This document shows, piece by piece, positions 17,199 through 51,743 of a stretch of DNA of 64,000 nucleotides. This stretch comes from Candidatus Poribacteria bacterium. GTDB taxonomy: Bacteria; Poribacteria; WGA-4E; WGA-3G. Within the stretch, counting starts at the first letter, position 1, and each line of letters opens with the position of its first letter. The DNA is taken from positions 124,001 through 188,000 of the forward strand of contig JAJECN010000040.1 in NCBI GenBank assembly GCA_022821965.1. Direction: 5' to 3'. The notes beneath the pieces are model-generated. The model had not been told where the DNA came from. It searched no databases and saw only the letters and a program-made list of their open reading frames with translations. A program made the translations under genes and the position numbers.

Positions 17199-20100
17199 AT
17201 GAATAGAAAAGGTATTGTTTTAGTGTTAGTGGTTGCTTTGTTTGCATTTGTTGCACAGGGCATTTCTGAGGCAGCTGTAAACAAAATATATTGGGTGGAT
17301 CGTTTTGAGGGGGAAATTTTGCGTGTGAACCCTGACAGTTCAAATAGAGAAACCCTCATCACAGGATTGTCCTCTTTAAGTCTCATAGCGCTGGATGTGT
17401 CTAATAACAAGATGTATTGGACAGACTGGAGATTTGGTAGAACATCTAAAATTTTTCGTTCGGATCTCAACGGAGATAATATAGAAGACCTTTTTACAGG
17501 ATCAGATGCGATAGAGGGCATAGCATTGGATGTATCTAATAACAAGATGTATTGGATAGAGTTTGACAATAAAATTCGGCGAGCGAACTTGGATGACTTT
17601 CATGTAGAAGACCTTTTTACACATGCAGATGGATGGATTTATCCAGAAGAATTAGCGTTGGATGTATCAGGTAATAAAATGTATTGGACAAACCCGATTT
17701 CGGGTGAAATTCACCGTGCCAACTTGGGTGGTACAGGTCCTGTGGAATACCTTCTCACAAGTGCTGATGGATTGAAGTCGCCAAGAAGCATAGCATTGGA
17801 TGTATCTAATAACAAGATGTATTGGTCAGACACTGGTACGGATAAAATTCTTCGTTCAAATCTTAACGGAGATAATATGGAAAACCTCGTTACAAGTGCG
17901 GATGGATTGAAGTACCCAAGAGATATAGTGTTGGATGTATCTAATAACAAGATGTATTGGTCAGACACTGGTACGGATAAAATTCTTCGTTCAAATCTTA
18001 ACGGAGATAATATAGAGGTCGTTATAAAATTGGATGGAGTAAGCAGGATGGCATTAGATTTATCTGGAGCTGGTGGGGATACACCACCCCCTACCAAACG
18101 ACCAGATCTTGTTGTTGAACCGTTTCGTGCAAACAAGACCTCCTTAGCCCCTGGTGAAAAGTTTACTTTATCTGCCACCGTCAGAAACAGGGGAACAAGG
18201 CAATCCGTCAGCACAACACTACATTATTACTTTTCCTCTAATGGCACTTTCCTCAGAAACGATGCGCATCATATTGCAGAAACAGATAGTGTGAGTGCCC
18301 TCGGTTCTAACCGCACCAGTGATGAAAGCATTGACCTTGATGGGCCCACTACTCCCGGCACTTACTATTTCAAGGCGTGTGTGGACAGCGTGCCGAATGA
18401 GATCGACCCTAATAACAACTGTTCCGATGTTGTCAAGATCACGGTAGGAGCATCTCCTGCGGCACAACCAGATCTTGCTGTTGAATCGCCTGGGGCGAGC
18501 AAAACCACCCTATCCCCCGGCGAAAGTTTTACACTGTCTGTTAGGGTCGTAAACCGGGGCACAGCCGATTCCCCTTCAACAACGCTAAGATATTATCGGT
18601 CTGTCAATAAAGCCGTCGCGACAAGTCAGACACAATTCTTTCGCGCCGTGGTAGGCCCGAAGCGTCCGACATCTTCCACCAATTTTACATCCGGCACCCC
18701 GCTCAATCTGGAGGCACCGGATACCCCGGGCACTTACTATTACAGTATTTGCATAGACCCTGTTGAGAATGAGAACAATACCGATAATAATTGTATCACG
18801 CCTATCAAAGTTACTGTAGGACAGCCAGTCGCGGGAAAACCGGACTTGGTGGTTGAACCGCCGCGTGTGAGCAAGTCCACCTTAGTCCCCGGTGAAAGTT
18901 TCAGATTGTCTGCCACGGTGAGAAACAGGGGAAACGCACGAGCCAACAGCACAACACTCAAGTATTACCTTTCAACTGATGCAGACATTGACAACAAGGA
19001 TAGACTTGTCGACACAGACAGCGTGAGCGCCCTCGCTGCCTATCGCACCAGTGATGAAAGCGTTACACTCAACGCACCGACTACACCCGGCACCTACTAT
19101 TACTATGCCTGGGTGAGCGCGGTCGCTAACGAAATCAGCACTGATAACAACTGGTCCAGGGCTGTCAAAGTCACCGTGCAACAGACAGGCGCGGGAAAAC
19201 CTGACTTAGTGGTTGAACCGCCGCGTGTGAGCAAGTCTACCTTATCGCAGGGTGAAAGTTTTACGCTTTATGCAAAGGTTAAAAACAGAGGAAACGGGCA
19301 AGCCAACAGCACAACGCTCCGGTATTATCGTTCAAGTAATGACAACACCATCTCCAATTACGACACACAAGTTGATACGGATACCGTGAACGGCCTCGGT
19401 GCCAACCGCACCTCAGATGAAAGTGCCACGCTCACCGCACCGACAGTCCCTGGCACATATTACTACGGTGCGTGTGTGGATAGGGTGAGTAATGAAGGCA
19501 CAACGAATAATAACTGCTCCACTGCAGTCAAAATCACTGTGCAACAGACAGGCGCGGAAAAACCTGACTTAGTGGTTGAACCGCCGCGTGTGAGCAAGTC
19601 CACCTTATCGCCCGGTGAAAGTTTTAAGTTGTCTGCCTCGGTGAGAAACAGGGGAAACGCACGAGCCAGCAGCACAACACTCAAATATTACCTTTCAACT
19701 GATGCAAACATTGACAACAAGGATAGACCTGTCGACACAGATTATGTGTTTAGCCTCGATGCTACCGGCATCGGGTGGGAAGGGACTGATCTCAAAGCAC
19801 CTACTGCCCTCGGCACCTACTATTACTATGCCTGTGTGGACAGCGTTCCGGGCGAGAGGGACCCTAATAACAACTGTTCCGCTGTTGTCAAGATCACGGT
19901 AAGGGAGGTAGAAGGACCTGTGATACATCCAGGTTTGACTGTGCCTATTTATTGGATAGCGGCAGCAGGGAGTAATAAAATTCAGCGTGCGAACCCTGGC
20001 GATTCTAACATAGGAACCCTTTTCACTACAGCAGATGGATTGAAGGCACCAGTAGACATAGCGTTAGATGTATCTAATGACAAAATGTATTGGACAGACG

Positions 20101-23100
20101 AGCTCACGCATAAAATTCATCGGGCAAATCTTGACGGATCAAATATGGAAGACCTTCTTACAAAGGCAGATGGATTGAAGGCACCAGTAGACATAGCGTT
20201 AGATGTATCTAATGACAAAATGTATTGGACAGACGAGCGCACGCATAAAATTCATCGGGCAAATCTTGATGGTAATAATGTTGAAGACCTCGTCTCCGGA
20301 GCGTTGATTTCAGGGGGCGTAGAATTGGATGTATCTAATCGTAAGATGTATTGGGGGGAGGGTTCGGCTTGGGTGGACGGCACGGGTAAAATTTACCGGG
20401 CAAACCTTGATGGATCGGATAAGGAAGACTTCCTCACAAAGTCAGACGACAGGTGGCTATTTCCAGCATACATAGCGTTGGATGTGTCTAATCGCAAGAT
20501 ATATTGGATAAATTGGATACGCTCCCCTGAAATCAAGTGTGCCAACCTGGATAGTTCTAAGATAGAAACTCTCATCAGAGATTCTGATTTAGATAATAGA
20601 GATGCTATAGTGTTGGACGTGCCTAATGGTAAGATATATTGGACAGTGAATAATAAGAATAAGATTCGGCGTGCAAACCTCGATGGCTCTAATATAGAAG
20701 ATATCATCACAGGATTGCGTTCTCCAATCAGTATAGCGTTGGGCATTCCATCAGGCACGCCGCCGCCAAACCGAAAGCCTGACCTTGTGGTTGAATCGCC
20801 GCCTCGTGTGAGCAAGTCCACCTTATCGCCCGGTGAAAGTTTCAGGTTGTCTGCGACCGTCGCAAATAGAGGCACGGCGGAGTCGGGTTCCACAACGCTC
20901 CGATATTACCGCTCTTCAGATCCTAAGATCTCTACAAGCGACACACAAGTCGATACAGATACCGTGAATGGACTTGGGCTGCCAACAGGGGGTAGGAGCA
21001 CCTCAGACGAAAGCGTCACGCTCACCGCACCCACAACCCCTGGCACATATTACTACGGTGCGTGTGTAGACAGGGTGAGTAATGAAGACACAACGAATAA
21101 TAACTGCTCCACGGCAGTCAAAATCATTGTGGAGCCCCCATCCGATGACCACGGAGATACGCTGGCGGATGCAACCCCGATCTCTGTTGGCATCGTCCGA
21201 CCGGGCGTAGTAGACCGCAGCCGGCTCATGCAGGGCGTGATAGGCACCCGTAATGACATAGACTACTTCCGCGTGGAAGTTACCGGTGCCGGTAGGTTGA
21301 CAGTCTATACAACAGGCAGTCTTGATACGGTGGGTGAACTCCAAGACAGTGCTGGTAACAGCGTAACAAGCAATGACAATGCTGGATCCGGTCGTAATTT
21401 CAGAATACAACGCGTCGTGAATTCAAGCACGTATTACGTCAAGGTACAGGGGCGTAGCGGCAACACTGGTTCCTATACCTTGTATGTAAAAATTGCCCTG
21501 GACGATCCGAACAGCACTGCTGACTTAATCGCGCAAGGCACCTGGGTCAGTGATAAGACCTTGGATCCTGGTGAGAGTTTTAAATTGGGTGTCGCTGTCA
21601 TGAACGTGGGAGATGCCCTCTCCCCTGCGACAACGCTAAAGTATTACCGCTCATCTAATGATGACAAAATCTCAACAAGCGATATAGAAGTCGACACAGA
21701 TGCCGTGAGTCGGCTCGCCGCTGATGGCAGATCAGAAGAACAGATCACACTCACTGCCCCGGATACACCTGGCATCTATTATTACGGTGCGTGTGTGAAA
21801 AGTGTCAAGAATGAAGCCCCCACCAATAATAACTGCTCACCGGCTGTGAAGGTTACTGTGGAACCCCCCGATGACTACGGCGATACGCTGGCAGAAGCAG
21901 CACCGCTCCCTTTGAACGGCTCTCTCAATGGCGTGATAGAAACAGGGGCGGATATAGATTACTTCCGTGTAGAAATCAGCGAACCCGGAAAATTGGCGGT
22001 TTGGACAACAGGGACTCTTGATACGATTGGGCAACTCCAAGATGGTTCCGGCACTGTTTTGGCAAGCGAGGACGATAACGGAAGCGGCAAAAATTTCAGC
22101 ATAGAACTCGCCAACCCTGTGACGGCGGGAACGTATTACATCAAGGTAGAAAGTTATCTCAGCAATACCGGGGACTATACTATTCACGCAAGTTTCGTGC
22201 TGCAACCGGACTTAGTCATTGAATCGGCTTGGGCAGAACCGTCTACCGTAGCACCTGGGGATAAGTTTAAACTCTATTCTATCCTCAAAAATCACGGAAC
22301 TGGGCAATCGGCCGCGACAATTCTCCGGTATTATCACTCTGACGATGACACCATTGATGAGACCAGTGCTACAAGCGATAGACAGATCGGAACTGGCAAA
22401 CGAGATCCACTGCCTGCTGATGGCACAATCAAGGGACGTTTCACTGTCACCGCACCGGACACGCCCGGCACCTACTATTACGGTGTCTGTGTGGATCACG
22501 TTGAGAATGAAAGCGATACCGGTAATAACTGCTCCGAGGTTGTCAGTATCACTGTATCGCCTCAGACAAACGCTGTTGTCCGTGTTACGCCTGCTTCCCT
22601 AACGCAAGGTGTCGGAGAACCGGTCACCCTTAAGATTGATTTTGCCGATGTCCAAGACATACTTGGGTATAATTTCACGCTTGAGTTTGATTCGGCGAAG
22701 CTAAGGTACCTCTCAAGTCGCTACTACGGTGCCCTAGGGCCTCGAGGGACACAAGTTGCTGTTCCTCCTCCGAAACTGAGCTTAAATAAGGTGACACTCG
22801 GAGCAATGAATATACAAGGTTCCGAGATCAGCGGTACCAGCACGTTTGCATTAATAACATTTCAGATGCTGCAATCAGGAACGTCTACGCTGAAGTTATC
22901 AGATGTAAAATTGACTCAAGAGAATGGTAATGTTGTATATCCTCGCGTTGAACATGGACAAATAACTGGAACCGTTTTGCCACCGCAGCAAAATATCGTA
23001 AAGTTGATATATTTTTTGCCAAAAGACCGCGATGCCCAGCAGAACATAGATGAAAAGATAGATACCTTAATCCGCGACGCACAACAGTTTTTCGCAAAAC

Positions 23101-25538
23101 AGATGGAACAGAAAAACGTCCATGTCAGAAAAACTTTCACATTTGAAACGGATGCGACGGGGAAGGCTGTGGTGCATCAGGTGAATGGTGCCCTCACGAA
23201 CGACGAGTATTATGAGAGCACTTGGCATGAAGTCAAGAGCGAAGTTGAAGCTGTGTTTGACACGTCAAGGAGTCTCTTTTTCATTGCTGCCGAGCTTGAG
23301 AGTGAACGGATTGGTGATTCCGAATCATCAGTATGCGGCAAAGGTGGTCCCCATCGCTCTTATGAGTCTGGGCGGTGGACATCATTAACCACTAAGATCG
23401 GTGGTATAGCACTCATTCCTGCCTCCGGTTCTTGTTTTGAGCGTCCTACCCTTACTTACCACGAACTCGGACACGCCTTCGGATTATTACACGATTTCCG
23501 CAGCTACACCTACATGATGGCTTACGGAAGTCGACGCCATCAACTGTCTGGGTGCGCGGCAGAATGGTTGGATGCAAGCCGCTTCTTCAACAGCAATCAA
23601 CCCTTAATCAACGATGAAGTTACAAGGATAGAAATGTTGCCGCTGGTTGCAAATCGGCAGAAGACTCTCAACTTTACGATAACGGATGCCGATGGCCTCC
23701 ATCAAGTCCAGTTGATTGTAGCCCCAAATGATGAGAAACCGCCCCCAGGGTATCCATACTCCGAGGATACATGGCGCAAGCTTGACCGTGTAAACAAGCA
23801 GTATTTACACGTGTGTAAGCGATTGAACGGTGAAAGTGACACGGTCGAATTTAGGACAGATGGGCTAAATGCCGATGAAGTCATGCTCCAGGTGATTGAT
23901 AAATATGGCAATTTCGTTAGGCAGAATTTTTCTCTTCCGTCGTATGACCATGGAGATACAGCAGCCGATGCAACACCGCTGCCTTTGGACAGTTCACTCG
24001 CTGGAGAGATTGAAACCGGCACGGATGTGGATTACTTCCGGATAGAAGTCAATGTGCCAGGGACGCTGATTGTTCATACAACCGGCAGCCTGGATACGAT
24101 GGGTGAGCTCCAAGAGAGTTCGGGTGCCCGCTTGGCAAGCAATGACGATGCCGCCGGAAACAACACAAATTTCAGAATAAAACACACCGTGAATGCTGGG
24201 ACGTATTACATCAAGGTGGGCAGCTACGATGTGGATACCGGAACTTATACCGTTCACGCGCGGTTTGTTACCGACAAGAGAGTAGACGTACGTCAGTTCA
24301 TGTACTGGACCTCCAGCGTTGATGGGATCCAGCGTGCGAACTTGGATGGCTCAGCGCGAGATCCGTTTTTCTCAACAGAGACTCCGATAGATATAGCATT
24401 AGATGTTGCCGGGGAGCAGATATATTGGACAGATACCAATCACAGGATCCAGCGTGCGAACTTGGATGGCACTGGCACACCAGACCTCATCATCAGTCGC
24501 AAGGATTTTCCAAACCCAGAGAATATTCTATCCTTAGGAGCGATAGCGTTGGATGTGGCCAACAACAAAATGTACTGGATTGTTCATCCGGAGGAAATCT
24601 GGTGGGCGAATCTGGATGGATCAAATCCAGAGAGACTCTTAACGACAAAAAACCCCAATCTGTTGGGACTTGATACAAAACCAACGGATATAGCGTTAGA
24701 TGTTCTACGAAACGATATATACTGGTCGGAGTTTAGCAATTTTAGAACCAGAATCTGGCGGGCCGACCTGAATGGAAAAAACCGACAAATAATCATCGAC
24801 TTACCGCATACATCGCATGAGATACAAGGTATAGCGTTGGATGTTACCAAGAATAAGGTATATTGGACAAATTCCCACGACGGTCCGAGTATCTGGTATG
24901 CAAATACGCTTGACGGCGACCCAGAATTACTCATAGATTTACCTGAGCAGGGTAATCGTAGTTTGCGAAAACCGTATGATATAGCATTAGATGTTGCCGG
25001 GGATCAGATATATTGGACCTATGCCATCGATGCCCTACCCGACATCATAGGATATGGAATTGCGCGTTCAAACATTGAAGGTTTTGGTGAACCGGAAATC
25101 CTCTTTACCTACTCCCCCAAGGATTCGAGCACGGGCAAAGTCAGGAGAGATGGGTTACTCCGAATGGCTCTCGGTGTTTCAGCGATGTCGGATACCAATC
25201 TAATCGCCGGAGCCTTAGCACCCAATGCGCCCTGGTCGCGTGTACAAGAAACGGCTCTTTTACCGAATTACCCGAACCCATTTAACCCGGAGACGTGGAT
25301 ACCGTATCAGTTGGCGAAACCTGCGGATGTGACATTGACGATCTATGACATCAAGGGACACGTAGTGCGTGCTTTAGATTTGGGACATCAACGGGCAGGT
25401 ATTTATCGAAGTCGGAGCCGTGCGGCGTATTGGGATGGTCGCAATGCACAAGGTGAACCTGTCGCCAGTGGTGTCTATTTCTACACGCTGAAAACGGGGC
25501 ATTTCTCGGCGACACGGAAGATGTTGATACGAAAATAA
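17199..25538 (+). CDS. giant secreted mosaic: YWTD propellers, CARDB x8, PPC x3, cohesin-like, HExxH metallopeptidase, C-terminal sorting-type domain
   Basis: A 2779-residue secreted protein; ATG 17199 has TGGAG upstream and a signal peptide (to about SEAA), unlike ATG 17184. Domains in order: YWTD/LDL-receptor-B blades (about 25-285), five CARDB domains (300-900), YWTD blades (905-1180), CARDB (1190-1310), PPC pre-peptidase domain (1315-1430), CARDB, PPC, CARDB, a cohesin-like sandwich (about 1790-1920), a metallopeptidase with HELGHAFGLLH at about 2088-2098 (HExxHxxGxxH zincin signature), PPC (to about 2360), YWTD blades (2365-2655), and a FlgD/type 9-sorting-like C-terminal domain (about 2680-2779; YPNPFNPE, ending MLIRK). 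It probably is a surface or secreted protease/adhesin. The cohesin and sorting assignments are by motif resemblance. Confidence 0.85.
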   Translation: MNRKGIVLVLVVALFAFVAQGISEAAVNKIYWVDRFEGEILRVNPDSSNRETLITGLSSLSLIALDVSNNKMYWTDWRFGRTSKIFRSDLNGDNIEDLFTGSDAIEGIALDVSNNKMYWIEFDNKIRRANLDDFHVEDLFTHADGWIYPEELALDVSGNKMYWTNPISGEIHRANLGGTGPVEYLLTSADGLKSPRSIALDVSNNKMYWSDTGTDKILRSNLNGDNMENLVTSADGLKYPRDIVLDVSNNKMYWSDTGTDKILRSNLNGDNIEVVIKLDGVSRMALDLSGAGGDTPPPTKRPDLVVEPFRANKTSLAPGEKFTLSATVRNRGTRQSVSTTLHYYFSSNGTFLRNDAHHIAETDSVSALGSNRTSDESIDLDGPTTPGTYYFKACVDSVPNEIDPNNNCSDVVKITVGASPAAQPDLAVESPGASKTTLSPGESFTLSVRVVNRGTADSPSTTLRYYRSVNKAVATSQTQFFRAVVGPKRPTSSTNFTSGTPLNLEAPDTPGTYYYSICIDPVENENNTDNNCITPIKVTVGQPVAGKPDLVVEPPRVSKSTLVPGESFRLSATVRNRGNARANSTTLKYYLSTDADIDNKDRLVDTDSVSALAAYRTSDESVTLNAPTTPGTYYYYAWVSAVANEISTDNNWSRAVKVTVQQTGAGKPDLVVEPPRVSKSTLSQGESFTLYAKVKNRGNGQANSTTLRYYRSSNDNTISNYDTQVDTDTVNGLGANRTSDESATLTAPTVPGTYYYGACVDRVSNEGTTNNNCSTAVKITVQQTGAEKPDLVVEPPRVSKSTLSPGESFKLSASVRNRGNARASSTTLKYYLSTDANIDNKDRPVDTDYVFSLDATGIGWEGTDLKAPTALGTYYYYACVDSVPGERDPNNNCSAVVKITVREVEGPVIHPGLTVPIYWIAAAGSNKIQRANPGDSNIGTLFTTADGLKAPVDIALDVSNDKMYWTDELTHKIHRANLDGSNMEDLLTKADGLKAPVDIALDVSNDKMYWTDERTHKIHRANLDGNNVEDLVSGALISGGVELDVSNRKMYWGEGSAWVDGTGKIYRANLDGSDKEDFLTKSDDRWLFPAYIALDVSNRKIYWINWIRSPEIKCANLDSSKIETLIRDSDLDNRDAIVLDVPNGKIYWTVNNKNKIRRANLDGSNIEDIITGLRSPISIALGIPSGTPPPNRKPDLVVESPPRVSKSTLSPGESFRLSATVANRGTAESGSTTLRYYRSSDPKISTSDTQVDTDTVNGLGLPTGGRSTSDESVTLTAPTTPGTYYYGACVDRVSNEDTTNNNCSTAVKIIVEPPSDDHGDTLADATPISVGIVRPGVVDRSRLMQGVIGTRNDIDYFRVEVTGAGRLTVYTTGSLDTVGELQDSAGNSVTSNDNAGSGRNFRIQRVVNSSTYYVKVQGRSGNTGSYTLYVKIALDDPNSTADLIAQGTWVSDKTLDPGESFKLGVAVMNVGDALSPATTLKYYRSSNDDKISTSDIEVDTDAVSRLAADGRSEEQITLTAPDTPGIYYYGACVKSVKNEAPTNNNCSPAVKVTVEPPDDYGDTLAEAAPLPLNGSLNGVIETGADIDYFRVEISEPGKLAVWTTGTLDTIGQLQDGSGTVLASEDDNGSGKNFSIELANPVTAGTYYIKVESYLSNTGDYTIHASFVLQPDLVIESAWAEPSTVAPGDKFKLYSILKNHGTGQSAATILRYYHSDDDTIDETSATSDRQIGTGKRDPLPADGTIKGRFTVTAPDTPGTYYYGVCVDHVENESDTGNNCSEVVSITVSPQTNAVVRVTPASLTQGVGEPVTLKIDFADVQDILGYNFTLEFDSAKLRYLSSRYYGALGPRGTQVAVPPPKLSLNKVTLGAMNIQGSEISGTSTFALITFQMLQSGTSTLKLSDVKLTQENGNVVYPRVEHGQITGTVLPPQQNIVKLIYFLPKDRDAQQNIDEKIDTLIRDAQQFFAKQMEQKNVHVRKTFTFETDATGKAVVHQVNGALTNDEYYESTWHEVKSEVEAVFDTSRSLFFIAAELESERIGDSESSVCGKGGPHRSYESGRWTSLTTKIGGIALIPASGSCFERPTLTYHELGHAFGLLHDFRSYTYMMAYGSRRHQLSGCAAEWLDASRFFNSNQPLINDEVTRIEMLPLVANRQKTLNFTITDADGLHQVQLIVAPNDEKPPPGYPYSEDTWRKLDRVNKQYLHVCKRLNGESDTVEFRTDGLNADEVMLQVIDKYGNFVRQNFSLPSYDHGDTAADATPLPLDSSLAGEIETGTDVDYFRIEVNVPGTLIVHTTGSLDTMGELQESSGARLASNDDAAGNNTNFRIKHTVNAGTYYIKVGSYDVDTGTYTVHARFVTDKRVDVRQFMYWTSSVDGIQRANLDGSARDPFFSTETPIDIALDVAGEQIYWTDTNHRIQRANLDGTGTPDLIISRKDFPNPENILSLGAIALDVANNKMYWIVHPEEIWWANLDGSNPERLLTTKNPNLLGLDTKPTDIALDVLRNDIYWSEFSNFRTRIWRADLNGKNRQIIIDLPHTSHEIQGIALDVTKNKVYWTNSHDGPSIWYANTLDGDPELLIDLPEQGNRSLRKPYDIALDVAGDQIYWTYAIDALPDIIGYGIARSNIEGFGEPEILFTYSPKDSSTGKVRRDGLLRMALGVSAMSDTNLIAGALAPNAPWSRVQETALLPNYPNPFNPETWIPYQLAKPADVTLTIYDIKGHVVRALDLGHQRAGIYRSRSRAAYWDGRNAQGEPVASGVYFYTLKTGHFSATRKMLIRK
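17796..18013 (+). repeat. 135-bp-period duplication of a YWTD blade
   Basis: Bases 17796-17878 recur identically at 17931-18013 (offset 135 bp = 45 codons). This is one propeller blade copied in frame, with almost no divergence, so the duplication is recent or maintained by gene conversion. Confidence 0.85.
20031..20274 (+). repeat. second 135-bp-period YWTD duplication
   Basis: Bases 20031-20139 recur at 20166-20274 with only a few differences, again at a 135-bp (45-codon) offset. It is independent of the duplication near 17.8 kb. Confidence 0.8.
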
Positions 25539-27174: not shown

Positions 27175-28200
27175 TTAAATATCTATCCTATACACGCGGG
27201 CGGCAGTGTCGTGGAACAGTGCGGCGCGCTCGGTATCCGAATACCCCGATGACAAGCGTTTGAAGGCGTTATACATTATATGGTAGGAGAACGAAACCTT
27301 GTCAACTGGGAAGTTGCTTTCAAACATACAACGTTCTGGACCAAATTGTTCAATGCAGTAATTCATGAAGGGTGCTATAGACTCGGCTAACTCCTCAGAA
27401 CCGATTGGTATTTCCCGCTCGTGCCAGTCGAAGCCGGTGCGTGGCATCCCAATGCCACCCAGTTTTATATTAACGTTGGGACACGCCGCGACTGCAGCGA
27501 TCCCTTCTCGCCAAGTTGCTAATACTTCGTCATCTCTGCCACCGTAGGGACCGACGCGTAGCAAGCCGCCAATATGGTTTAGAATAATCGTCAAATCGGG
27601 CACCGCTTTTGCGAAATCAGCGAGTTCCGGGAGTTGCGGGAAATACATCCACCCCTCGAAAGACATCCCCATACGTGCCAGCACCCGTGCTCCTGCACGG
27701 AAGTCCTCACGAGCGAGTTGTCCCTCTCTTCTGTAGACGGAGGCTTTTTCTATCTCTGGATGCGGATCCCAAGTGACGGAATGACGGATCCCCCGAAATC
27801 GGTTTGGGCTTGCTGCTTGCAAGACTTCCAGCACAGATTCAACACGTTCGCCCAAGTTTAGGTTCGCATGCCCGACGATTGCTGCGGCTGCACGGCTCGT
27901 GCCGTATAAACCGCTTGCACTCGCAGCTGCCAACCCTTGTACGAATTCGACCTCACCGACGGGACGCATCTCTTCCGGTCCATCGGCGCGGTACATTGCT
28001 CTCGCCTCAACAAACACAGTAGAACGCACGTTATGTCCACTGTCAATGTCTGTGATCAACTCGTGAAGCAGATACCGTTGGTAAGGGATACGCTCAGTTC
28101 GGAAATCCCAAAAATGGTGGTGCGGATCGCAAATTGGTAGTTCCGGCTCCAGCGTTGGTTCTTCGGTTAAAGCGAGCCAGTCGTTGTCTCCATAAGGCAT
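27175..28200 (-). CDS. amidohydrolase_2 family TIM-barrel hydrolase
   Basis: A 341-residue cytosolic metal-dependent hydrolase (Amidohydro_2, COG3618-like). The N-terminal metal motif is CDPHHHFWD at residues 25-32; NHIGG and FESNFPVDK mark later barrel strands with likely metal-binding His and Asp. Members hydrolyse lactones, 2-pyrone-4,6-dicarboxylate and related ring compounds, or decarboxylate aromatic acids. The substrate is not determinable. It is monocistronic, with a repeat field upstream. Confidence 0.85.
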   Translation of the reverse strand: MPYGDNDWLALTEEPTLEPELPICDPHHHFWDFRTERIPYQRYLLHELITDIDSGHNVRSTVFVEARAMYRADGPEEMRPVGEVEFVQGLAAASASGLYGTSRAAAAIVGHANLNLGERVESVLEVLQAASPNRFRGIRHSVTWDPHPEIEKASVYRREGQLAREDFRAGARVLARMGMSFEGWMYFPQLPELADFAKAVPDLTIILNHIGGLLRVGPYGGRDDEVLATWREGIAAVAACPNVNIKLGGIGMPRTGFDWHEREIPIGSEELAESIAPFMNYCIEQFGPERCMFESNFPVDKVSFSYHIMYNAFKRLSSGYSDTERAALFHDTAARVYRIDI

Positions 28201-28220
28201 AGAAATCTCTCCGTCTTTAT

Positions 28221-28350
28221 AGGTCAGGACCTACGCAAATTGCGTAAAAAAGCAATACATTTCACTGAAAAAGTAGTTATTTCAGTTATTTAACCCCCTA
28301 AATCCCCCTTATCAGGGGGACTTCAAGAGGAAGTGCGTAAGTCCTAATAG
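28221..28350. mobile_element. MITE-like element with AGGACYTACGCA ends
   Basis: Inverted termini AGGACCTACGCA (28226-28237) and TGCGTAAGTCCT (28334-28345) bound about 120 bp that also hold a CCCCCTAAATCCCCC...GGGGG hairpin. There is no coding capacity. Short elements with AGGACTTACGCA ends are common non-autonomous relatives of IS630/Tc1-type transposons; no transposase is in this window. Confidence 0.5.
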
Positions 28351-28439
28351 GTTTCAAATTGCTTGTTCTGTCTTTTAGCGTCCACTGTAGGGTATCGGAG
28401 AATTTTTGTCAATACCTTTTGATTCCGCAAACAGGGCTA

Positions 28440-28905
28440 TTTAGTTTTAATCGAGGGGTCTCAATGCCGCCCCTACGAGGCTTGTCTTTTTTTGATTCTG
28501 ATTTCTACACAGATGCCGCCCCTACGGGGCTAAAGAGGCGGAGGAAGCGCGTTTCTATAAACATATCGTCCCTAATGAAGATTAAGAATTTAATCGGGTA
28601 ATTTTTTCCGATGTCCGGTGCGGTTAGGAAACCGCACCTACCGGGCTTGGGAGAGCATAGAATTACCCAAATATTTTATTAAACTTCATATGGGACTGAA
28701 GAGGGTTTTTGGACATATAGGGTTTGTGTGTAAGATCCGGTTCGGTTAGGAAACCGAACCTACCGGCCTGGGGGTGCGACGGTTGTTTTTTTAAAAATTG
28801 ATAGTTATGGTGCGGTTGGGAACGCAGGTCGCAACCCCCCTTTATCCCCCCTTATCAGGGGGCAGGTGAGTACGCCGCAAAACCGCACCTACCGGGCCTG
28901 GTGGT
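28440..28905. repeat. cluster of GC-rich palindromic repeats
   Basis: Non-coding field with at least three copies of a GGTGCGGTTAGGAAACCGCACC-type hairpin (28614-28646, 28736-28769, and an interrupted one at about 28810-28903 with a CCCCCCTTATCAGGGGG insert) plus GCCGCCCCTACGGGGC short palindromes near 28460 and 28512. Similar units recur at 36070-36370 and 60133-60164. The arms differ between copies but stay complementary (GCGGTT/AACCGC versus TCGGTT/AACCGA). Confidence 0.65.
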
Positions 28906-29178
28906 GAAGACGGGAGACGGTATTATGTTGGTAAACTTTTTTAAGGGATACACGGCTGATATGCGTCACATAAAAGAAAAGAAAGTTTGAAAGTACATTT
29001 AAAGTTGTGAAGTGCCCAAAGTTATTGCGATGAAAGAATGTTTTTGAAACTTTACAGACTGGAGGACACTTTAGGGATTTTGAAACTTTCCGATATGCTT
29101 TCCTTGCGTATGAAGTGTTTCTGTGGCATAATAGATACAAGATGGTGAAAGGCAGTTTTCAGATTCCGAGACGGGAAC

Positions 29179-29309
29179 TTATAGTAAAACCTATAATGAA
29201 TTGGACACTCTCAAACAGTCTGAATGCCGCTAAAGGGCATTCAAACTGGAAACCCAAACTAAAAGTTTATGCTACGAATATGTCTGCTTATTTTTAGGAT
29301 TCACTATAA
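29179..29309. mobile_element. MITE-like element, TTATAGTA...CACTATAA ends
   Basis: Left end TTATAGTAAAACC and right end TAGGATTCACTATAA form an imperfect terminal inverted repeat around 131 bp that includes a GAATGCCGCTAAAGGGCATTC hairpin. No gene inside. The right end stops about 20 bp before the ATG of the propeller lipoprotein, so the element probably supplies part of its 5' leader. Confidence 0.55.
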
Positions 29310-29330
29310 AATAAAGGGGAGACGGTGGAA

Positions 29331-32300
29331 ATGATGCAGCGATCAGATGAGAGTAATCATTGGATTGTGGAGGAAGGGTCGGGAATCGGAGTTACCTCCT
29401 ACAAAAGTAAATGTTTTTACACTGCTTGGGTTGCATGTGCTTTGTTGTTGCTTGCCCACCTTGTGATTATAGGGTGCGGACCGTTGACGAGCGATCAGCA
29501 ATCTAATCTCCCGTTTGAGGATTCTGGCGTAGATTCGCGCCCCGAAAAAGTATGGCCCGTGGAACGGACACTCATCAGCAACGAAGTTAACTGTATTGCC
29601 GCTGATCCAGACAATGTATGGATTGCGACGGCGCGCGGGGTTTCACGCTGGGAACGTCAGCAGGATAAGTGGCTCCACTATACGATGGAAGATGGACTGG
29701 CAAACGATATGGTAAACGCTGTCGCAATTGATGGGCAATGGGTCTGGTTCGCCACGGATGAAGGTGTGAGTCGCTACGATATGCAAACGGGCACTTTCGC
29801 GACCTTCCGAACTATTGATGGCTTAGCGAGCGACCAAGTCTCCTCTATTGCGATAGATGGAAACTACGTATGGTTTGGAACATCCGATGGGCTGAACCGT
29901 TATGACAAAACAATTGATAGTTGGGCGGTGCGTACCCGAAAAGATGGCTTGGTCAGTAAAGTAATTACAACAATAGCGGTAGAACCGGAGTACGTCTGGG
30001 TTGGCACGGATAGGGAGATAAACCCGGATCCGCATGGATGGGATGAGGATCCACGGTTCAGCAGAGGCGGGGTGAGCCGCTACCATCGAGATACCGATTC
30101 TTGGAATAACTATACGAAATCGGACGGTTTGATAGACAGTGAAATTGCCACGATTGCAGTGGACGATGACAGTGTTTGGTTTGGCACTCAAGAAGAAGGT
30201 GTCAGTCAGTACAATAAGGTTGATCAGACATTCATCAAAACCTATACGAAAACCGATCTGCTGAAAAGCAATATGATCAGTTCCATTCGATCAGACGGTT
30301 TCCAAGTCTGGTTTGGGACTGCTAATGCGGGTGTACATCGGTTCATCAAACCCGTCAATACATGGGTACATTACACCAAAGCAGATGGATTGTCAAGCAA
30401 TCATGTGAGTTGGATTGCTATACAAGGTAATGATGTCTGGTTCGCGAGCAAAGAGGATGGTGTAAGTCGCTTTGATAAGGTGAGCGGTGAATGGACAATT
30501 TACAAGCAAGCGGATTTTCTCGCCGACAACGATGTTCGTGCTATCGCACGCGGGGCGGATGGTAACCTCTGGATGGCGACAGTCGCTGGGATTTCGGTTT
30601 ACTCTCCGCAAACACGTAGTTGGGAAATCATCTCTAAAGAGGATGGACTACCGACTCCGTATACCACGTCAATACTTATTAGCCAGAGTAGCCATCAGCA
30701 ATCAGCAGTCAGCAGTCAGCAATCAGCAATCAGCAGTCAGCAAGATAGCAGTCAGCAGTCAGCAGTCAGCAATCAGTTAAAAGATGTTGCTGTTGAATCA
30801 GATACCCCTTTAACTGAAAACCAAAGATCAAAGATCGATAACTATTCCACTGACAACCGACAACCGACAACTGATAATTCCTCTGTACAGGTCTGGGTTG
30901 GGACCGATAGAGGGCTTGGGATGCGGACATATACGGGCGATGAATGGATATTTCATACACCGCAAAATATCAATCAGCAGTCAGCAGTCAGCAGTCAGCA
31001 AGAGGGGGTAGGTGCATCAGAAACCTCTTTACCGAAAGCCGAAAGCCGAAAGCCGAAAACCATTCACGGTGAAGCTTTTGTGATAGCACTTGATACCGAT
31101 GCGACACAGCCGGGCGGTGTTGTCTGGCTCGGTACCAGTTCGGGACCCGCCATGTATGATCCAGTCTCTCAAAAGTGGACGCTGCTTTCCATAACGGACG
31201 CACTCAAAAATCCGATTATCCTGTCTGTGTTTGTTCGTGATGATAATGTTTGGTTTGGTGGGGCTGAGGGTGTTTGGCGATATTCAATCGCCAATAAGCA
31301 GATGCACCGTGCTACCGATGGGCTTCCGAATCCGTATGTTAATGTCCTGTTGTCCGCGGGTGAAAAAGGAGAAGAGACGCTTTGGGCAGGGACGCACAAA
31401 GGTCTTGCCAAGTATGACAATACCCAGAAGCGTTGGGTACCGCTGTCCTTTAATGACCAATTGCCGTCCCCCAATGTCACCGCGCTCGCTTTTCGAGATG
31501 GTATTCTTTGGATCGGTACTCCGCAAGGGTTAGGAAGTTACACGATTGCTTCCGATTCTTGGAATTCGCTTTCAAACGTGCCGTATAACGTTCGCGACAT
31601 TCTGTGTGAAGCAGACGACACACTTTGGCTGGCGACGGACACTGGTCTCGTTGAATACAGCACACAAGATGGCAGAGAGGTCTTGCATCAGTCCCGTCCG
31701 GTGCGGGAGCCATTTCTGGAAACGAGAGTCTCACACATCCAATTTGATGGGGATTACATCTGGTTCACTAATTGGAGATCTTCGCCGAACGGTAGTATTG
31801 TGCGGTTTCATCGTCCAACGGCAACGTGGCGGCGTTTCACACGCTTAGATATTTTACAGTCCACTCAGAAAAGATCTATGACCTTTATCCGTTGGACATA
31901 CGTCGATACTGATGCCGTTTGGTTCACTACGGATTACGGTATTCTCCGTTACGATAAAATGGCGGATACGTGGCAGCATTTTACGACGGAAGATGGACTC
32001 TCTACAGACGATGTGAATAGAATTGATGTGAGTGAGCAGAGCGTCTGGGTCATTCCGATGATAGGTTTGGAATTAAACCATTATAGTAAAGCGACTGGAA
32101 CATGGGAAATCGTTGAACAGGGAGATAACCGCGAGATTGAGCGTGTAAAGGCACTTGGTGTTGATGGACCGGAGGTCTGGTTTTCATCTGGGCGCGGACT
32201 CACTCGTTACAATGAAATCACCGGTGAATGGAAGGATTTCGGACCAAGGGATGGTCTGGCAGGTAGAGGCGGGGAATGGATTACTGTGGATGACGATTTT

Positions 32301-33803
32301 ATCTGGGTTGCGCGTTCGGAATGGGATAGAGGCAGCAACCGTCCGTTGTCCCGATACGATAAGAAGACAAAAGAGTGGACGACCTTTTCAACGAATGACG
32401 TACTTGCTGCGAATACGATTAGACGTATTATCTCAACAGAGAAGGATGTCTGGATACTCTACAGACCGTGGGATGACGCAGGTGTTACCCGATATGATCG
32501 GCGTACAAAGGAGTGGACGACAATCAGATCCGGACGCGGAACGCTCGAACTGGCAGCCGATGATGACTATCTGTGGTTAGCTGCACCCAACGATGGACTT
32601 CGACGATTTCATTTTGCCTCTGGTACTTGGGCAAGATTTAGAGACATCAAAGGGCTGCTCCATAACCATGTCGGCGAGTACGGGCTTGCAGTCGATGAGG
32701 ACTATGTATGGGTGGGGACCTTGCGCGGGCTTTCCCGTTATGACAAGCGGAAGGAATCTTGGACCCCTTTGACAGCACTACCAACCCTTGTTGGACGCAC
32801 CATCCGGACGGTAGATACGGATGAACGTTTTGTCTGGATCGGTTCTGACGAAGGTATGTCACGCTATGACAAGGTTTTAGGGACTTGGAAGAATTATCGG
32901 CAGGAGGGTGGATCCGAAAATATAGAAACCCACGGTGGTCATTGGCACCAACACGGACGGAAAAAGAAAGACAGTCTCTCCGATAACGTTGTGAGTTCTA
33001 TTGTAACGGATGAACAGTATGTCTGGGTCGGGACACGCGACGGTGCGAATCGTTTTGATAAGATAGCCTTGCGGTGGGATCAGTACAAAACTCACCACGG
33101 ATTGCCCGCCAATAATGTGACTTCTGTGAGCAGCGACGGCGATAGTATTTGGGTTGGGACTAATTCCGGGATTGGGAAGTATCCGCGCACTGCGGATGAC
33201 CTCAACGCCTGGATTACCTACACATCGGGGACTGAGATCCAGCCTTCTGCTGTATCCAAAGAGTTTGCAGAATCATTGGTTACCGATCAAATTTGGTGCA
33301 TCACGGCGAGCAAAAAACACGTCTGGGTTGGGACGCGCAGAGGTGTTAGCCAATACGACATTAGTCGGGACATTTGGAAAACAATCACAGTGAAAGATGG
33401 GCTTGCGAGTGATGAAATCAGTTGTATCGCTATTGATGGCGACAATGTCTGGTTTGGGAGCGATCTTGGTGTGACGCTCTATAATGAAAAGACAGAGGTT
33501 TGGGCTGGCTATACAATAGAGGATGGACTTGCGAGTAACAAGGTTACGACTATTGGGGTCGATGGGACAGAAGTCTGGATCGGCACCTACAATGCTGGGG
33601 TCAGTCGGTTTGATCGGTTAACAAATACGTGGATGACTTACACCCGGAAGGACGGTTTAGCCCATAACGGTATCCTTTCGATGGCTATCGGGAACACCTA
33701 CATTTGGTTGGGCACATATCGTGGATTGAGTCGTTTCGATAAACGGACAGGAACGTGGACAATCTTCACAGAGTCTTACGGACCGGAGGATATTTTGAGG
33801 TGA
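29331..33803 (+). CDS. Reg_prop-type beta-propeller lipoprotein
   Basis: About 1490 residues. ATG 29331 has AGGGGAG 9 nt upstream. A long charged N-terminus (about 30 residues) precedes a hydrophobic segment and lipobox VIIGC, so it is probably an anchored lipoprotein. The rest is some two dozen repeats of the form VWFGTxxGVSRYDKxTxxWxxYTxxDGLxxNxVxxIAID, the two-component-regulator propeller (Reg_prop, PF07494) unit, likely two or three stacked propellers. No kinase, HAMP or DNA-binding domain follows, so a sensor kinase role is not supported; ligand binding or scaffolding is inferred. Two blades are separated by Gln/Ser-rich inserts encoded by heptanucleotide repeats (30696-31061). The paralogous barrel protein lies 116 bp downstream. 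Confidence 0.8.
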   Translation: MMQRSDESNHWIVEEGSGIGVTSYKSKCFYTAWVACALLLLAHLVIIGCGPLTSDQQSNLPFEDSGVDSRPEKVWPVERTLISNEVNCIAADPDNVWIATARGVSRWERQQDKWLHYTMEDGLANDMVNAVAIDGQWVWFATDEGVSRYDMQTGTFATFRTIDGLASDQVSSIAIDGNYVWFGTSDGLNRYDKTIDSWAVRTRKDGLVSKVITTIAVEPEYVWVGTDREINPDPHGWDEDPRFSRGGVSRYHRDTDSWNNYTKSDGLIDSEIATIAVDDDSVWFGTQEEGVSQYNKVDQTFIKTYTKTDLLKSNMISSIRSDGFQVWFGTANAGVHRFIKPVNTWVHYTKADGLSSNHVSWIAIQGNDVWFASKEDGVSRFDKVSGEWTIYKQADFLADNDVRAIARGADGNLWMATVAGISVYSPQTRSWEIISKEDGLPTPYTTSILISQSSHQQSAVSSQQSAISSQQDSSQQSAVSNQLKDVAVESDTPLTENQRSKIDNYSTDNRQPTTDNSSVQVWVGTDRGLGMRTYTGDEWIFHTPQNINQQSAVSSQQEGVGASETSLPKAESRKPKTIHGEAFVIALDTDATQPGGVVWLGTSSGPAMYDPVSQKWTLLSITDALKNPIILSVFVRDDNVWFGGAEGVWRYSIANKQMHRATDGLPNPYVNVLLSAGEKGEETLWAGTHKGLAKYDNTQKRWVPLSFNDQLPSPNVTALAFRDGILWIGTPQGLGSYTIASDSWNSLSNVPYNVRDILCEADDTLWLATDTGLVEYSTQDGREVLHQSRPVREPFLETRVSHIQFDGDYIWFTNWRSSPNGSIVRFHRPTATWRRFTRLDILQSTQKRSMTFIRWTYVDTDAVWFTTDYGILRYDKMADTWQHFTTEDGLSTDDVNRIDVSEQSVWVIPMIGLELNHYSKATGTWEIVEQGDNREIERVKALGVDGPEVWFSSGRGLTRYNEITGEWKDFGPRDGLAGRGGEWITVDDDFIWVARSEWDRGSNRPLSRYDKKTKEWTTFSTNDVLAANTIRRIISTEKDVWILYRPWDDAGVTRYDRRTKEWTTIRSGRGTLELAADDDYLWLAAPNDGLRRFHFASGTWARFRDIKGLLHNHVGEYGLAVDEDYVWVGTLRGLSRYDKRKESWTPLTALPTLVGRTIRTVDTDERFVWIGSDEGMSRYDKVLGTWKNYRQEGGSENIETHGGHWHQHGRKKKDSLSDNVVSSIVTDEQYVWVGTRDGANRFDKIALRWDQYKTHHGLPANNVTSVSSDGDSIWVGTNSGIGKYPRTADDLNAWITYTSGTEIQPSAVSKEFAESLVTDQIWCITASKKHVWVGTRRGVSQYDISRDIWKTITVKDGLASDEISCIAIDGDNVWFGSDLGVTLYNEKTEVWAGYTIEDGLASNKVTTIGVDGTEVWIGTYNAGVSRFDRLTNTWMTYTRKDGLAHNGILSMAIGNTYIWLGTYRGLSRFDKRTGTWTIFTESYGPEDILR
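30696..31061 (+). repeat. heptanucleotide repeat tracts inside the propeller gene
   Basis: Several 7-bp arrays lie within the coding frame: CAGCAGT/CAGCAAT about 12 times at 30696-30780, AAAGATC twice near 30833, YGACAAC three times at 30851-30871, CAGCAGT four times at 30971-31001 and GAAAGCC three to four times at 31034-31061. Read in frame they encode QQSAVSS-type peptides. The arrays contain no stop on this strand. Confidence 0.85.
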
Positions 33804-33806
33804 AGA

Positions 33807-33845
33807 TAGTTATCAGTTTTCGGTTATCAGTTTTCAGTTAAGAGA
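33807..33845. repeat. intergenic heptamer tract
   Basis: Five consecutive 7-mers of the GTTATCA/GTTTTCG/GTTTTCA/GTTAAGA type directly after the propeller gene. They are the intergenic counterpart of the tracts inside that gene. Confidence 0.7.
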
Positions 33846-33919
33846 TTATGATTTAAGAAACGGGTCTTGTAGCCGACAGCCGATAATTAACGACTGAACA
33901 ACTGTTTAAAAAAAGATTT

Positions 33920-35872
33920 ATGGAAATAAATACAGGTGTCCGAAAATGCCTGATCCCGGGCTTTCTCCTCTTACTGTTGAATTGCTTGCTCGTGTTTCGT
34001 GCTGAGGCAGAGGATGCTTACAGTCTATTCGGTAAATTGTTCCTATCCGGACGCGTCGAATACGATTTCACAAATAGACGGAACTTCCTCGCGGATACAG
34101 AGGAAGAACGAGTTAGACAAGATCGTTTTGATTTCGACCGCCTCTTTCGGCGCGGCTTCCATAGCGTGATGGTGATTGAGGAGACCGCGGGCAGGGTCAA
34201 GAATATCCTGAGTCTCGGTGAAGTGCCAACGACGTTCACGAAGTTCACTTTCGATCAGATCGACCTAAGTGGTGTGCGCTGGGAAGTCCGCTCTGATCAC
34301 ACCGATTGGACGATCTTGATGGTCCCGGGTTTGCTCAATCGGCTGAACGGTCAAGAAGGAAGAACCGATGGATCGGGTATAGGCTTACGCGAGGTCACAA
34401 AGTTCGGCAGGTCGCAGTTGGGACTTTCTTGGTACTACCGCAAGGTCCCCGTATGGGCGGTAGATTTGGAAACCAATTTCACGAACTACGGTATCAAAGC
34501 CGAGGTGGCTGTCACACCGAAAAATGCGTTGCAAAAGAACTTGGGTTCACGTTTCGATGCGACGACAACAGTTTTCAAAGCCTTTCAAACTGTTGGTGAT
34601 ACAATTTTTCAGGCGGAAGCGTTTCGCGTCGGTCCCAGATTCGATGCTTCCCGTTCAGTTGGTGATAACGATGACCAGGACCGCTACTCTGATAACACAC
34701 CCTCTGATCCACCCTCTCTAATTATTCCCGGTGACCTTGATAAAAATAACAACGGTATCTTCGACTACGAGGATGATATTCTGCTTTTCGATGTCGATGA
34801 GGATTTCCTTGACGAAAGCGATCGGAATAACAACGGCATTCGTGATGAAGAGGAGAACGATAAGGACCCCAATTACGAGTTCGATGTCGGACTTCAAGGC
34901 ATCCGTCTTTTCATGAACCGCAAAATAAGTCGTCAAGCAAGTGTGGTTGACTTAGATTTTGGGCTACAGATTGAAGAAAATATCAGACTCAGGAATACGC
35001 CATCCTCGACGAAAGCGTTTGGCAATCTGATTTATCGGAAGGAACTCGCGCGGGCTTCCTCGCTCGTTTTTGAGAATGAGCTGAAATTGGTAAAAGATCG
35101 GATTCCTGACGAGACGTGGTATTTTGCTGGGTTTTTAAGCGGAACGGAGGAGCATCTCTATCGGTCGCAGCCGGAGGTACGAAAAATGGAGAGAGACGGC
35201 GGGGTGGAATTCTTCGGTATTGATGGCGGCACCGAAGTCGAAAAACGACGCAAGGACCCACTGCTGATGCAGAACGACCTTATTAACACTGCCAAAATCA
35301 CGTATGAATACTTGGGGATTGACCGGATGATTACCACGGCTCGCGCCAAAATTCAATACGACTACGATTTTGAAAAGGACAACCAGCATTACGAGGTAGG
35401 CATTTTCAAAACCCTATATCGGATGCGTCCGACCAAATCGCTTGAGATCAGTCCAATGTTTAAGTCCACCATCCGTAACGGCTTTCGGATGGCGGAGGAC
35501 CGGCTTGAATATCTTTCCTTGAGCGGCGAAATCGACGGTAGGGAAGCCTTTCGCCGCCTCCGATTGCGGGAGATTGAACGGACAAATGTCCGGGATATGG
35601 CTTCAGCACTTATTCTTAAGGTCGTGTATCAGTTTACGAAGACTATCAAACTTACCGGTGGTGGGCAAATTCTGTTGTTCAATGATATGCGTGATAATGA
35701 TAACGACTTTGTTCGTCAAGCACTGTTAGCGGAGATGGAAAAGAGTTTTGTCGCTTACGAGAAGCGGCTCTTCCTTCATATCGGTGCACGCTACATAGAT
35801 CAGCGCGCAATTGGGGATGTGAACGATCAGAACTATATGGAAATTTTTGTGCGTGTCTTTGGAAGATTCTAA
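33920..35872 (+). CDS. outer-membrane beta-barrel-like protein with EF-hand-like insert (paralogue of 6018-9350)
   Basis: A 650-residue exported protein with signal peptide (LIPGFLLLLLNCLLVFRAEAE). Residues about 80-145 (VIEETAGRVKNILSLG...LSGVRWEV) align with the N-terminal part of the 1110-residue protein on the left. Residues about 272-320 contain DKNNNGIFDYEDD and DRNNNGIRDEEEN loops followed by NYEFDVGLQGIRL, matching the same order there. The C-terminal half consists of amphipathic strands ending in YMEIFVRVFGRF, a terminal aromatic as in barrel proteins. Calcium binding and outer-membrane location are inferred. The gene following the propeller lipoprotein could be its partner. Confidence 0.65.
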   Translation: MEINTGVRKCLIPGFLLLLLNCLLVFRAEAEDAYSLFGKLFLSGRVEYDFTNRRNFLADTEEERVRQDRFDFDRLFRRGFHSVMVIEETAGRVKNILSLGEVPTTFTKFTFDQIDLSGVRWEVRSDHTDWTILMVPGLLNRLNGQEGRTDGSGIGLREVTKFGRSQLGLSWYYRKVPVWAVDLETNFTNYGIKAEVAVTPKNALQKNLGSRFDATTTVFKAFQTVGDTIFQAEAFRVGPRFDASRSVGDNDDQDRYSDNTPSDPPSLIIPGDLDKNNNGIFDYEDDILLFDVDEDFLDESDRNNNGIRDEEENDKDPNYEFDVGLQGIRLFMNRKISRQASVVDLDFGLQIEENIRLRNTPSSTKAFGNLIYRKELARASSLVFENELKLVKDRIPDETWYFAGFLSGTEEHLYRSQPEVRKMERDGGVEFFGIDGGTEVEKRRKDPLLMQNDLINTAKITYEYLGIDRMITTARAKIQYDYDFEKDNQHYEVGIFKTLYRMRPTKSLEISPMFKSTIRNGFRMAEDRLEYLSLSGEIDGREAFRRLRLREIERTNVRDMASALILKVVYQFTKTIKLTGGGQILLFNDMRDNDNDFVRQALLAEMEKSFVAYEKRLFLHIGARYIDQRAIGDVNDQNYMEIFVRVFGRF

Positions 35873-36034
35873 AAAAATACAAAAATTGTGAAAAATTATC
35901 CATAATTTCGCGAATTTCCGTGAAATTATGCATTTTTTTGTAAATTAATTTGACAAACCTTTTTTTAGGGTGTATAATACTATTAATACGTATTTAGAAT
36001 TAGTATTTGATAGTCGTAATTCGCAATATGCGCA
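35873..36034. other. AT-rich non-coding stretch
   Basis: Strongly AT-rich, with AATTTCGCGAATTTCCGTGAAATT just after the barrel gene, which can fold as a weak hairpin and might act as a terminator. A TTGACA-like box (35950) and TATAATAC (35973) sit at promoter-like spacing on the plus strand ahead of the element at 36035; this is only suggestive. Confidence 0.4.
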
Positions 36035-50887: not shown

Positions 50888-51595
50888 ATGAAATCAATAA
50901 TTACCGCTGTGTCAGGACTCACAGCGGCCGGACTGTTATGGCTTTTCTTTAGACCGCCTTTTGGGAAGAATGTCGTTCGCCTGAACACAGATCAGAAGGT
51001 TGTCGCGCTCACATACGACGATGGACCAAATCCGCCTTATACTGAGCGGTTACTTGATGTTCTCGCCAAGCACAACGTCAAAGCCACATTCTTCATGATT
51101 GGAAATCGGATTGAGAGGCATCCTGAAACAGTTCATCGGGTTATCGCTGAGGGGCATCAGATTGGCAACCACTCTTACAGCCATCCGTTGTTGGGTTTCC
51201 TGCCGCCGACCTATGTCCAACGGGAAATTGAACGTACGGACCAGCTGCTTCGGCAATTCGGAATTGTGGGGGAGATAGTGTTTCGGGCACCCATATTAAC
51301 AAGGTTTCTGCCGGTCGCTTATGTGCTTGCGAAAGGGGACCGTTCACACACCAGCTGCAATGTATGGAGTTGGGATTGGACCACACAGAATCCGCACAAG
51401 ATCACTGAAACAGTATTGAAGAAAACACTTTCATCTACAGGGGCGGGTTCAATTATCGTCTTACACGATGGGAAAGCGGAAAATAAAAACGCAGTCCGTT
51501 TAGGGACAATCGAAGCGACAGACCGAATCATTACCGCCTTGAAACGGGATGGATACAGGTTCGTGCGGTTGGCAGATGTCAATAGTCAGAGTTAA
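50888..51595 (+). CDS. polysaccharide deacetylase (NodB homology domain)
   Basis: A 235-residue carbohydrate esterase 4 protein with an N-terminal hydrophobic segment (about residues 5-21) that could anchor or export it. The NodB motifs are complete: TYDDGPN (Asp44, Asp45), HSYSHP (His95, His99) forming the metal site, RAPI, and IIVLHDG. It probably N-deacetylates peptidoglycan or another N-acetylated glycan. The stop codon (51593-51595) lies in the first unit of an intergenic heptamer tract. It stands alone between minus-strand groups. Confidence 0.9.
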   Translation: MKSIITAVSGLTAAGLLWLFFRPPFGKNVVRLNTDQKVVALTYDDGPNPPYTERLLDVLAKHNVKATFFMIGNRIERHPETVHRVIAEGHQIGNHSYSHPLLGFLPPTYVQREIERTDQLLRQFGIVGEIVFRAPILTRFLPVAYVLAKGDRSHTSCNVWSWDWTTQNPHKITETVLKKTLSSTGAGSIIVLHDGKAENKNAVRLGTIEATDRIITALKRDGYRFVRLADVNSQS

Positions 51596-51737
51596 CAGTT
51601 GTCAGTTCTCGGTTGTCAGTTAAAGAGGAATCTTGTCCAACCAAACTATCGGCGGTGGGGTGTTTGTTCCTTGACGACCTGTAAACATATTTTCGGATTT
51701 TACTATAACTGATGGCTGTTAACTGTTAACTGACGAC
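51591..51737. repeat. heptamer tracts flanking a lone element end
   Basis: GTTAACA/GTTGTCA/GTTCTCG/GTTGTCA/GTTAAAG (51591-51625) and CTGTTAACTGTTAACTGACGA (about 51717-51737) are 7-bp arrays. Between them a CGGATTTTACTATAA motif (to 51708) matches the right end of the TTATAGTA element family without a left partner. Confidence 0.6.
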
Positions 51738-51743
51738 TATTCT

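Follow-up and report, generated by a model that had tools for sequence, protein, structure and literature searches.

Arrays of a seven-nucleotide unit lie inside the reading frame of a beta-propeller gene in a 64,000-nt stretch of a Candidatus Poribacteria genome (the window), where the gain or loss of a single unit would shift the frame. What are these arrays, and how does the gene tolerate them? A reading made from the sequence alone had proposed either a tolerated invasion or a phase-variation switch, and had likened the arrays to the STRR of filamentous cyanobacteria. Heptamers of this class have been described by MacGregor 2015 (PMC4679880) as TAACTGA direct repeats of Beggiatoaceae, Cyanobacteria and Bacteroidetes, which are mainly intergenic with a few inside ORFs; 169 direct sets and one indirect set were reported in the main genome, and no particular RNA structure was predicted from the direct repeats. 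A different kind of repeat, the Rickettsia palindromic element (RPE), forms hairpins of ~100-150 bp and is found between genes and also, in frame, within unrelated proteins that are likely functional, to which it adds tens of residues (PMC10969869, PMC3733652). Our analysis indicates that the arrays in the Reg_prop gene very probably form the arms of an interspersed palindromic element, present there twice, that is RPE-like in its behaviour, and not a phase-variable tract.

Results and discussion

The arrays of the Reg_prop gene are probable arms of a hairpin

The features of the window on which the analysis is based are as follows.

29325..33803, plus strand: Reg_prop / PorZ-like beta-propeller gene, 1492 aa (ORF; Pfam Reg_prop 1e-33), with two element copies in frame
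30690..30882, core on minus strand, read in frame on plus: element copy 1 (site 1), consisting of a TCAGCAR arm, core and CAAAGAT/GACAACC arm; fold z -4.75
30758-30833, minus strand: covariance model match of copy 1, 37.6 bits
30781..30810, minus strand: core of copy 1 from the sequence, AAGGGGTATCTGATTCAACAGCAACATCTT (on minus)
30966..31064, minus strand: element copy 2 (site 2), consisting of a (TCAGCAG)4 arm at 30974-31000, core and (CCGAAAG)4 arm at 31032-31058; fold z -5.25
30980-31051, minus strand: covariance model match of copy 2, 89.3 bits, the best of the genome
31000..31029, minus strand: core of copy 2 from the sequence, AAGAGGTTTCTGATGCACCTACCCCCTCTT (on minus)
33808..33900, plus strand: element copy 3, intergenic, directly after the Reg_prop stop codon; covariance model match 33818-33891, 24.4 bits
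47164..47215, plus strand: element copy 4, intergenic, short/decayed, from alignment with relatives
51582..51743, plus strand: element copy 5, intergenic, arms at ~51590-51623 and ~51708-51740, core holding a remnant of another repeat

Both TRF and a scan for exact repeats of period 7 place the arrays at 30690-30776, 30852-30871, 30974-31000 and 31032-31058, and the ORF 29325-33803 (plus strand) is intact, without a stop across all of them, which bears out the earlier claim that heptamer arrays lie inside the coding frame. The whole window holds eight exact runs of period 7, compared with zero to two at each of the other periods between 3 and 13, and the five exact runs of period 14 are harmonics of period 7. 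Genome-wide, three-unit matches to TTATCAG (at most three mismatches) number 641 against four in the reversed control, so the period-7 arrays are far above chance; for TCAGCAG triplets the corresponding numbers are 49 and 7.

Within the gene the arrays are paired as arms with a conserved core in between. On the coding strand the first arm is made of TCAGCAG/TCAGCAA and the second of CCGAAAG/GACAACC/CAAAGAT. The proposal that the arrays encode Gln/Ser-rich linkers holds for the first arms (QQSAVSSQQ) but not for the second, which encode a Thr/Asp/Asn/Arg/Lys-rich peptide (TDNRQPTTDN, PKAESRKP); SAVSSQQEGVGASETSLPK is one peptide that translation through the element would yield. The minus strand of 30966-31064 reads as CTTTCGG-type heptamers, then TAAAGAGGTTTCTGATGCACCTACCCCCTCTT, then GCTGACT heptamers, and 30686-30882 follows the same plan, which on the element strand can be written as (TCRGYNN)n, a core of AAGAGG-loop-CCTCTT, and (NNRCYGA)n; the feet are often AATAG and CTATT.

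Both Reg_prop copies fold as a ladder in which 5-bp stems, formed by TCRGC pairing with GCYGA (G.U allowed), alternate with 2x2 internal loops formed by the other two nucleotides of each unit, and no shuffled sequence folded as well as either copy. The unit is seven nucleotides long because each rung consists of one 5-bp stem and one 2x2 loop, and this provides a structural reason for the period of bacterial heptamer repeats that have long been known and so far gone unexplained. Several other places in the genome carry the same arms and core, and the intergenic arrays at 33808, 47172 and 51591/51717, which had been regarded as the same type, are indeed copies of one element, the second being partial and the third holding a nested repeat. 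A search of Rfam with positions 28000-36000 of the window gave no match.

For the protein product, residues 316-855 were modelled with AlphaFold from the single sequence; the model is poor (mean pLDDT 54.9), has strands on both sides, and falls below a pLDDT of 50 over residues 438-585, the span that covers sites 1 and 2. These low values fit disordered spacers at both sites and prove little; the element product in Reg_prop is probably a disordered spacer to each side of one set of propeller strands.

The arms covary and the family fills the genus

Five copies served to build a covariance model, which at E<=0.01 gives 87 matches in the genome itself, both strands of near-palindromes being counted. 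The family is present in all 24 genus genomes of a first set, each of which yields 18 to 111 matches at that threshold (both strands may count, and only the best candidates were scored), and then in 38/38. The same model finds a few matches in other genera of the same taxonomic family, outside which the phylum has almost none, and the public matches that share the core are labelled Candidatus Poribacteria. A strict count of two-arm structures over 464 kb yields ~19 per Mb, or near 110 per genome, and none in the reversed control. The genus is filled with the family, each genome holding some 100 copies or more. Our literature search, for which subscription journals were largely outside reach, returned no earlier report of a heptamer-armed hairpin family in Poribacteria.

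Pairing between the arms is maintained while their sequence changes. Across 150 aligned matches, an alignment that was fitted to the structure and includes both strands of near-palindromes, 90% of the cells are paired, and 16 of the 21 pairs have changed on both sides; double changes number 142 against 88.8 when shuffled (0/500), all measures exceed those of 500 shuffles, and controls with slid partners pair at no more than 50.5%. A separate count by arm class gives 51 T/A, 22 C/G, 9 wobble T/G and 2 mismatched C/A combinations (Fisher 4e-11). In the CarA gene of one relative (G006), the entire arms have switched to CCAG units on one side and CTGG units on the other. It is the structure that is conserved, rather than the sequence.

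Copies within genes keep the frame open

Other open frames, which the reading from the sequence had suggested checking, hold the element as well: in-frame copies are found in CarA, Der, RNase J, a PBP1C-like gene (with two copies), a RecD2-like helicase, a DAGK-like gene, FG-GAP genes and other genes, where all names except CarA, Der, RNase J and Reg_prop are our own reading of the sequence, made without a family search. The copy in CarA sits between the CPSase and GATase (glutaminase) domains, and that in RNase J just before RNase_J_C. The frame is open in each of the 13 in-gene copies that were scored, as against 42/86 intergenic ones, and the CYGA arm, a potential source of TGA stops, carries C, giving the stop-free CCGA, in 22/37 cases in CDS compared with 184/589 between genes (p 0.0009). 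An apparent orientation bias of the copies in CDS (11/12) was rejected as biology, as avoidance of stops biases which arm is called right.

Matches to the Reg_prop gene were found as orthologues in 38/38 genus genomes, fetched without any requirement for an open frame. Insert lengths at site 1 run from 63 to 297 nt and are divisible by three in 33/33 scorable orthologues, a count that leaves out G011 and G049, whose anchors were mis-set. At site 2, 15 filled orthologues were scored and 14 are in frame, the only broken frame being that of G019, with a 95-nt insert in a genome of 9% estimated contamination; a seeming frame loss in G010 was rejected, because the break is an assembly gap of Ns. 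The CarA orthologues are in frame in 30/30 cases (18 filled, 12 empty), as are 29/29 of those of the GTPase Der, about half of which have the element and half another linker. These frame counts are not independent, the species being related, and they are no effect of short-read assembly, because the single-contig genomes G005, G009, G021 and G053 agree. Since the arrays differ so much in length among species, many length changes must have occurred, and from the alleles we infer that the frame is under purifying selection.

This pattern bears directly on whether the gene is a contingency locus, in which slippage of the heptamers would shift the frame and turn Reg_prop on or off. Such a switch would account for tandem 7-mers in a coding frame, for copy numbers that differ between species, and for the one orthologue out of frame at site 2. 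However, a switch sampled at random is expected to be found in the off state in as many as two thirds of the genomes, whereas the Reg_prop alleles keep their frame at both sites despite the range of lengths, the same element is in frame throughout CarA and Der, and the degenerate and interrupted units should reduce slippage. We consider phase variation highly improbable, and of the two possibilities raised from the sequence it is the tolerated invasion that is supported, given an element at ~100 intergenic places that is present or absent at equal positions in relatives and lies in frame in unrelated proteins.

The Der orthologues without the element carry another long, unrelated linker (TASAPITLPYTYDDAETETSD...) in the same position within the first G domain. 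As element-free species have a linker there too, the Der loop is itself an unusual insertion in the genus.

Most copies lie just behind stop codons

Of 98 sampled copies 86 are intergenic, compared with a coding fraction of 0.857 of the DNA, and among 84 scorable spacers with copies 72 are codirectional, 8 convergent and 4 divergent, with a median distance of 19 nt behind the upstream stop codon; the gene calls in this context test are our own, based on codon bias. In codirectional spacers 40 copies lie in the same and 32 in the opposite orientation, which amounts to no consistent orientation.

A location close behind stop codons, the scarcity in divergent spacers, and pairing that is kept while sequence changes are what a functional 3'-end or intercistronic RNA hairpin would show, one kept by selection for mRNA stability or termination in a REP-like manner, with the in-gene copies as by-catch. 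On the other side, the copies inspected have no U-tract at the right foot, presence differs between species, and avoidance of coding DNA and promoters alone would give an equal pattern. Selection for such an RNA function is possible but on the unlikely side, and it is compatible with the interspersed palindromic element that we favor.

Empty, filled and replaced alleles among relatives

The position of copy 3 holds an element in 10/10 relatives compared, with different arms and core in each, and filled sites in general vary between species in both arms and core. The site at 47165 is filled in G017 and G005 and empty in G001, G008 and G020; the empty/filled pair reveals no target duplication beyond 2-3 nt, although clean pairs are few. 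Site 2 of Reg_prop is empty in about half of the relatives. At this site and in Der, the empty allele has other sequence in place of the element instead of simply lacking an insert. The element may therefore move by conversion, or heptamers may grow locally. A scan of syntenic stretches for further empty sites found few.

Sites 1 and 2 of Reg_prop are identical within G010 and within G013, and unlike those of other species. Together with the differing arms between species, this suggests copying or conversion within genomes. Homogenisation within the gene was rejected as a general rule: it is clear in G010 and G013, and in 7/15 genomes, but not in the others, site 2 finds its best match in site 1 of its own genome.

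A REP element mobilised by RAYT or IS200 would be a conventional source of such copies, and Y1_Tnp genes do occur in most genus genomes. They are also present in genomes of families without the element, and no transposase could be linked to the family when Y1_Tnp genes were searched across genomes. None of the 12 Y1_Tnp loci examined has heptamers or model matches nearby, which means that no RAYT gene flanked by copies was found among them, and copies inspected by eye have no GTAG/GGAG tag, their feet often being AATAG/CTATT. Mobilisation of this kind has little probability.

A palindromic element with RPE-like behaviour would explain these alleles as follows. The element would insert or be copied to new places, as presence and absence suggest, and would survive mainly just downstream of stop codons; inside genes, where selection is the likely cause of the pattern seen, it would survive only if the frame stays open and the site is a permissive loop or linker. 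Heptamers would be gained and lost, probably by slippage, and the arms would stay complementary, probably through hairpin-templated correction or conversion. Dozens of relatives have been sequenced, and since their alleles include empty, filled and replaced ones, both the movement of the element and its absorption by core proteins are testable.

Relation to known repeats and to heptamers in other phyla

The closest parallel in behaviour is the RPE. The heptamer element is likewise a hairpin-forming interspersed repeat of ~100-150 bp, as judged by folds and the covariance model, and it is likewise found in frame in unrelated protein genes as well as in spacers. It differs in that one conserved peptide frame is absent, the core being read in three frames in the seven in-CDS copies scored, in that its arms are heptamer ladders, and in its host, a Poribacteria-type genome. 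The element thus resembles RPE in how it appears to work and is not filed as one, the likeness described here being one of behaviour. It would add to Rickettsia another case in which palindromic repeats have entered proteins in frame. REP and the GTAG- or CGTC-tagged palindromes (PMC3733652) are also high-copy intergenic palindromes with some copies inside genes, but the heptamer element is no tagged REP, being longer, heptamer-laddered, free of a tag in the copies inspected and without an associated tyrosine transposase found. MITEs (PMC10969869) share with it that they are short, non-autonomous, interspersed inverted repeats, sometimes fused in frame; for the heptamer element, the few clean pairs gave no target duplication beyond 2-3 nt and a search of Y1_Tnp genes gave no parental transposase, so that it is at most a candidate MITE.

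The comparison with STRR was partly right. The heptamer class is that of TAACTGA/STRR, TCAGTTA being the reverse complement of TAACTGA, and the distribution, mainly intergenic with few inside ORFs, is shared; here, though, paired inverted covarying arms of mixed heptamers (TCRGYNN) surround a core, forming a two-armed hairpin and not a plain direct repeat. Exact matches to the two-arm pattern, whose cores are different, extend to Cyanobacteria, Acidobacteriota, Planctomycetota, Bacteroidota, Proteobacteria, Chloroflexota and further groups. In 20 such genomes, arms facing inward (TCAG 5' of CTGA) number 142, overlapping matches counted, and outward ones 0; the genomes were chosen for at least one inward match, and the inward excess is far larger than one each.

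If the arrays were plain short tandem repeats of the STRR/TAACTGA type, grown independently by slippage at many places, the hairpin would be incidental. The shared heptamer (PMC4679880) and the variable array length speak for this. The fixed polarity in the 20 genomes preselected for an inward match does not, nor do the common core and compensatory arms in the genus or the presence and absence at orthologous sites, and we regard independent growth as improbable. Published TAACTGA 'direct repeats' may instead often be hairpin arms. A broader proposal, which we put forward tentatively and hold to be somewhat less than evenly probable, is that TCAGTTA/TAACTGA heptamers in many phyla are arms of one fixed-polarity class of mobile hairpins, which in Poribacteria would be a recurrent source of in-frame linkers, even in core enzymes.

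Other repeats in and beside the element sites

A MITE-like interspersed repeat, TTATAGTGAATCCTAAAAATAA...CACTATAA, is nested in heptamer elements of G005, and a remnant of it lies in copy 5 (window ~51680-51712). In G001 a further palindromic repeat, TTTAACCATCAACTCGTGCTTTAACATTTATAA...GAGTTGATGGTTAA, is nested in the element sites that match window 33780 and 51575, and the G005 spacer matching window 47140 contains, beside the element, GTAGCATAAACTTCCAGTTTGTGCATCTTT repeated about a dozen times in tandem. Elsewhere in the window, an ORF of 2784 aa at 17184-25538 carries internal tandem duplications of 135-bp and 363-bp.
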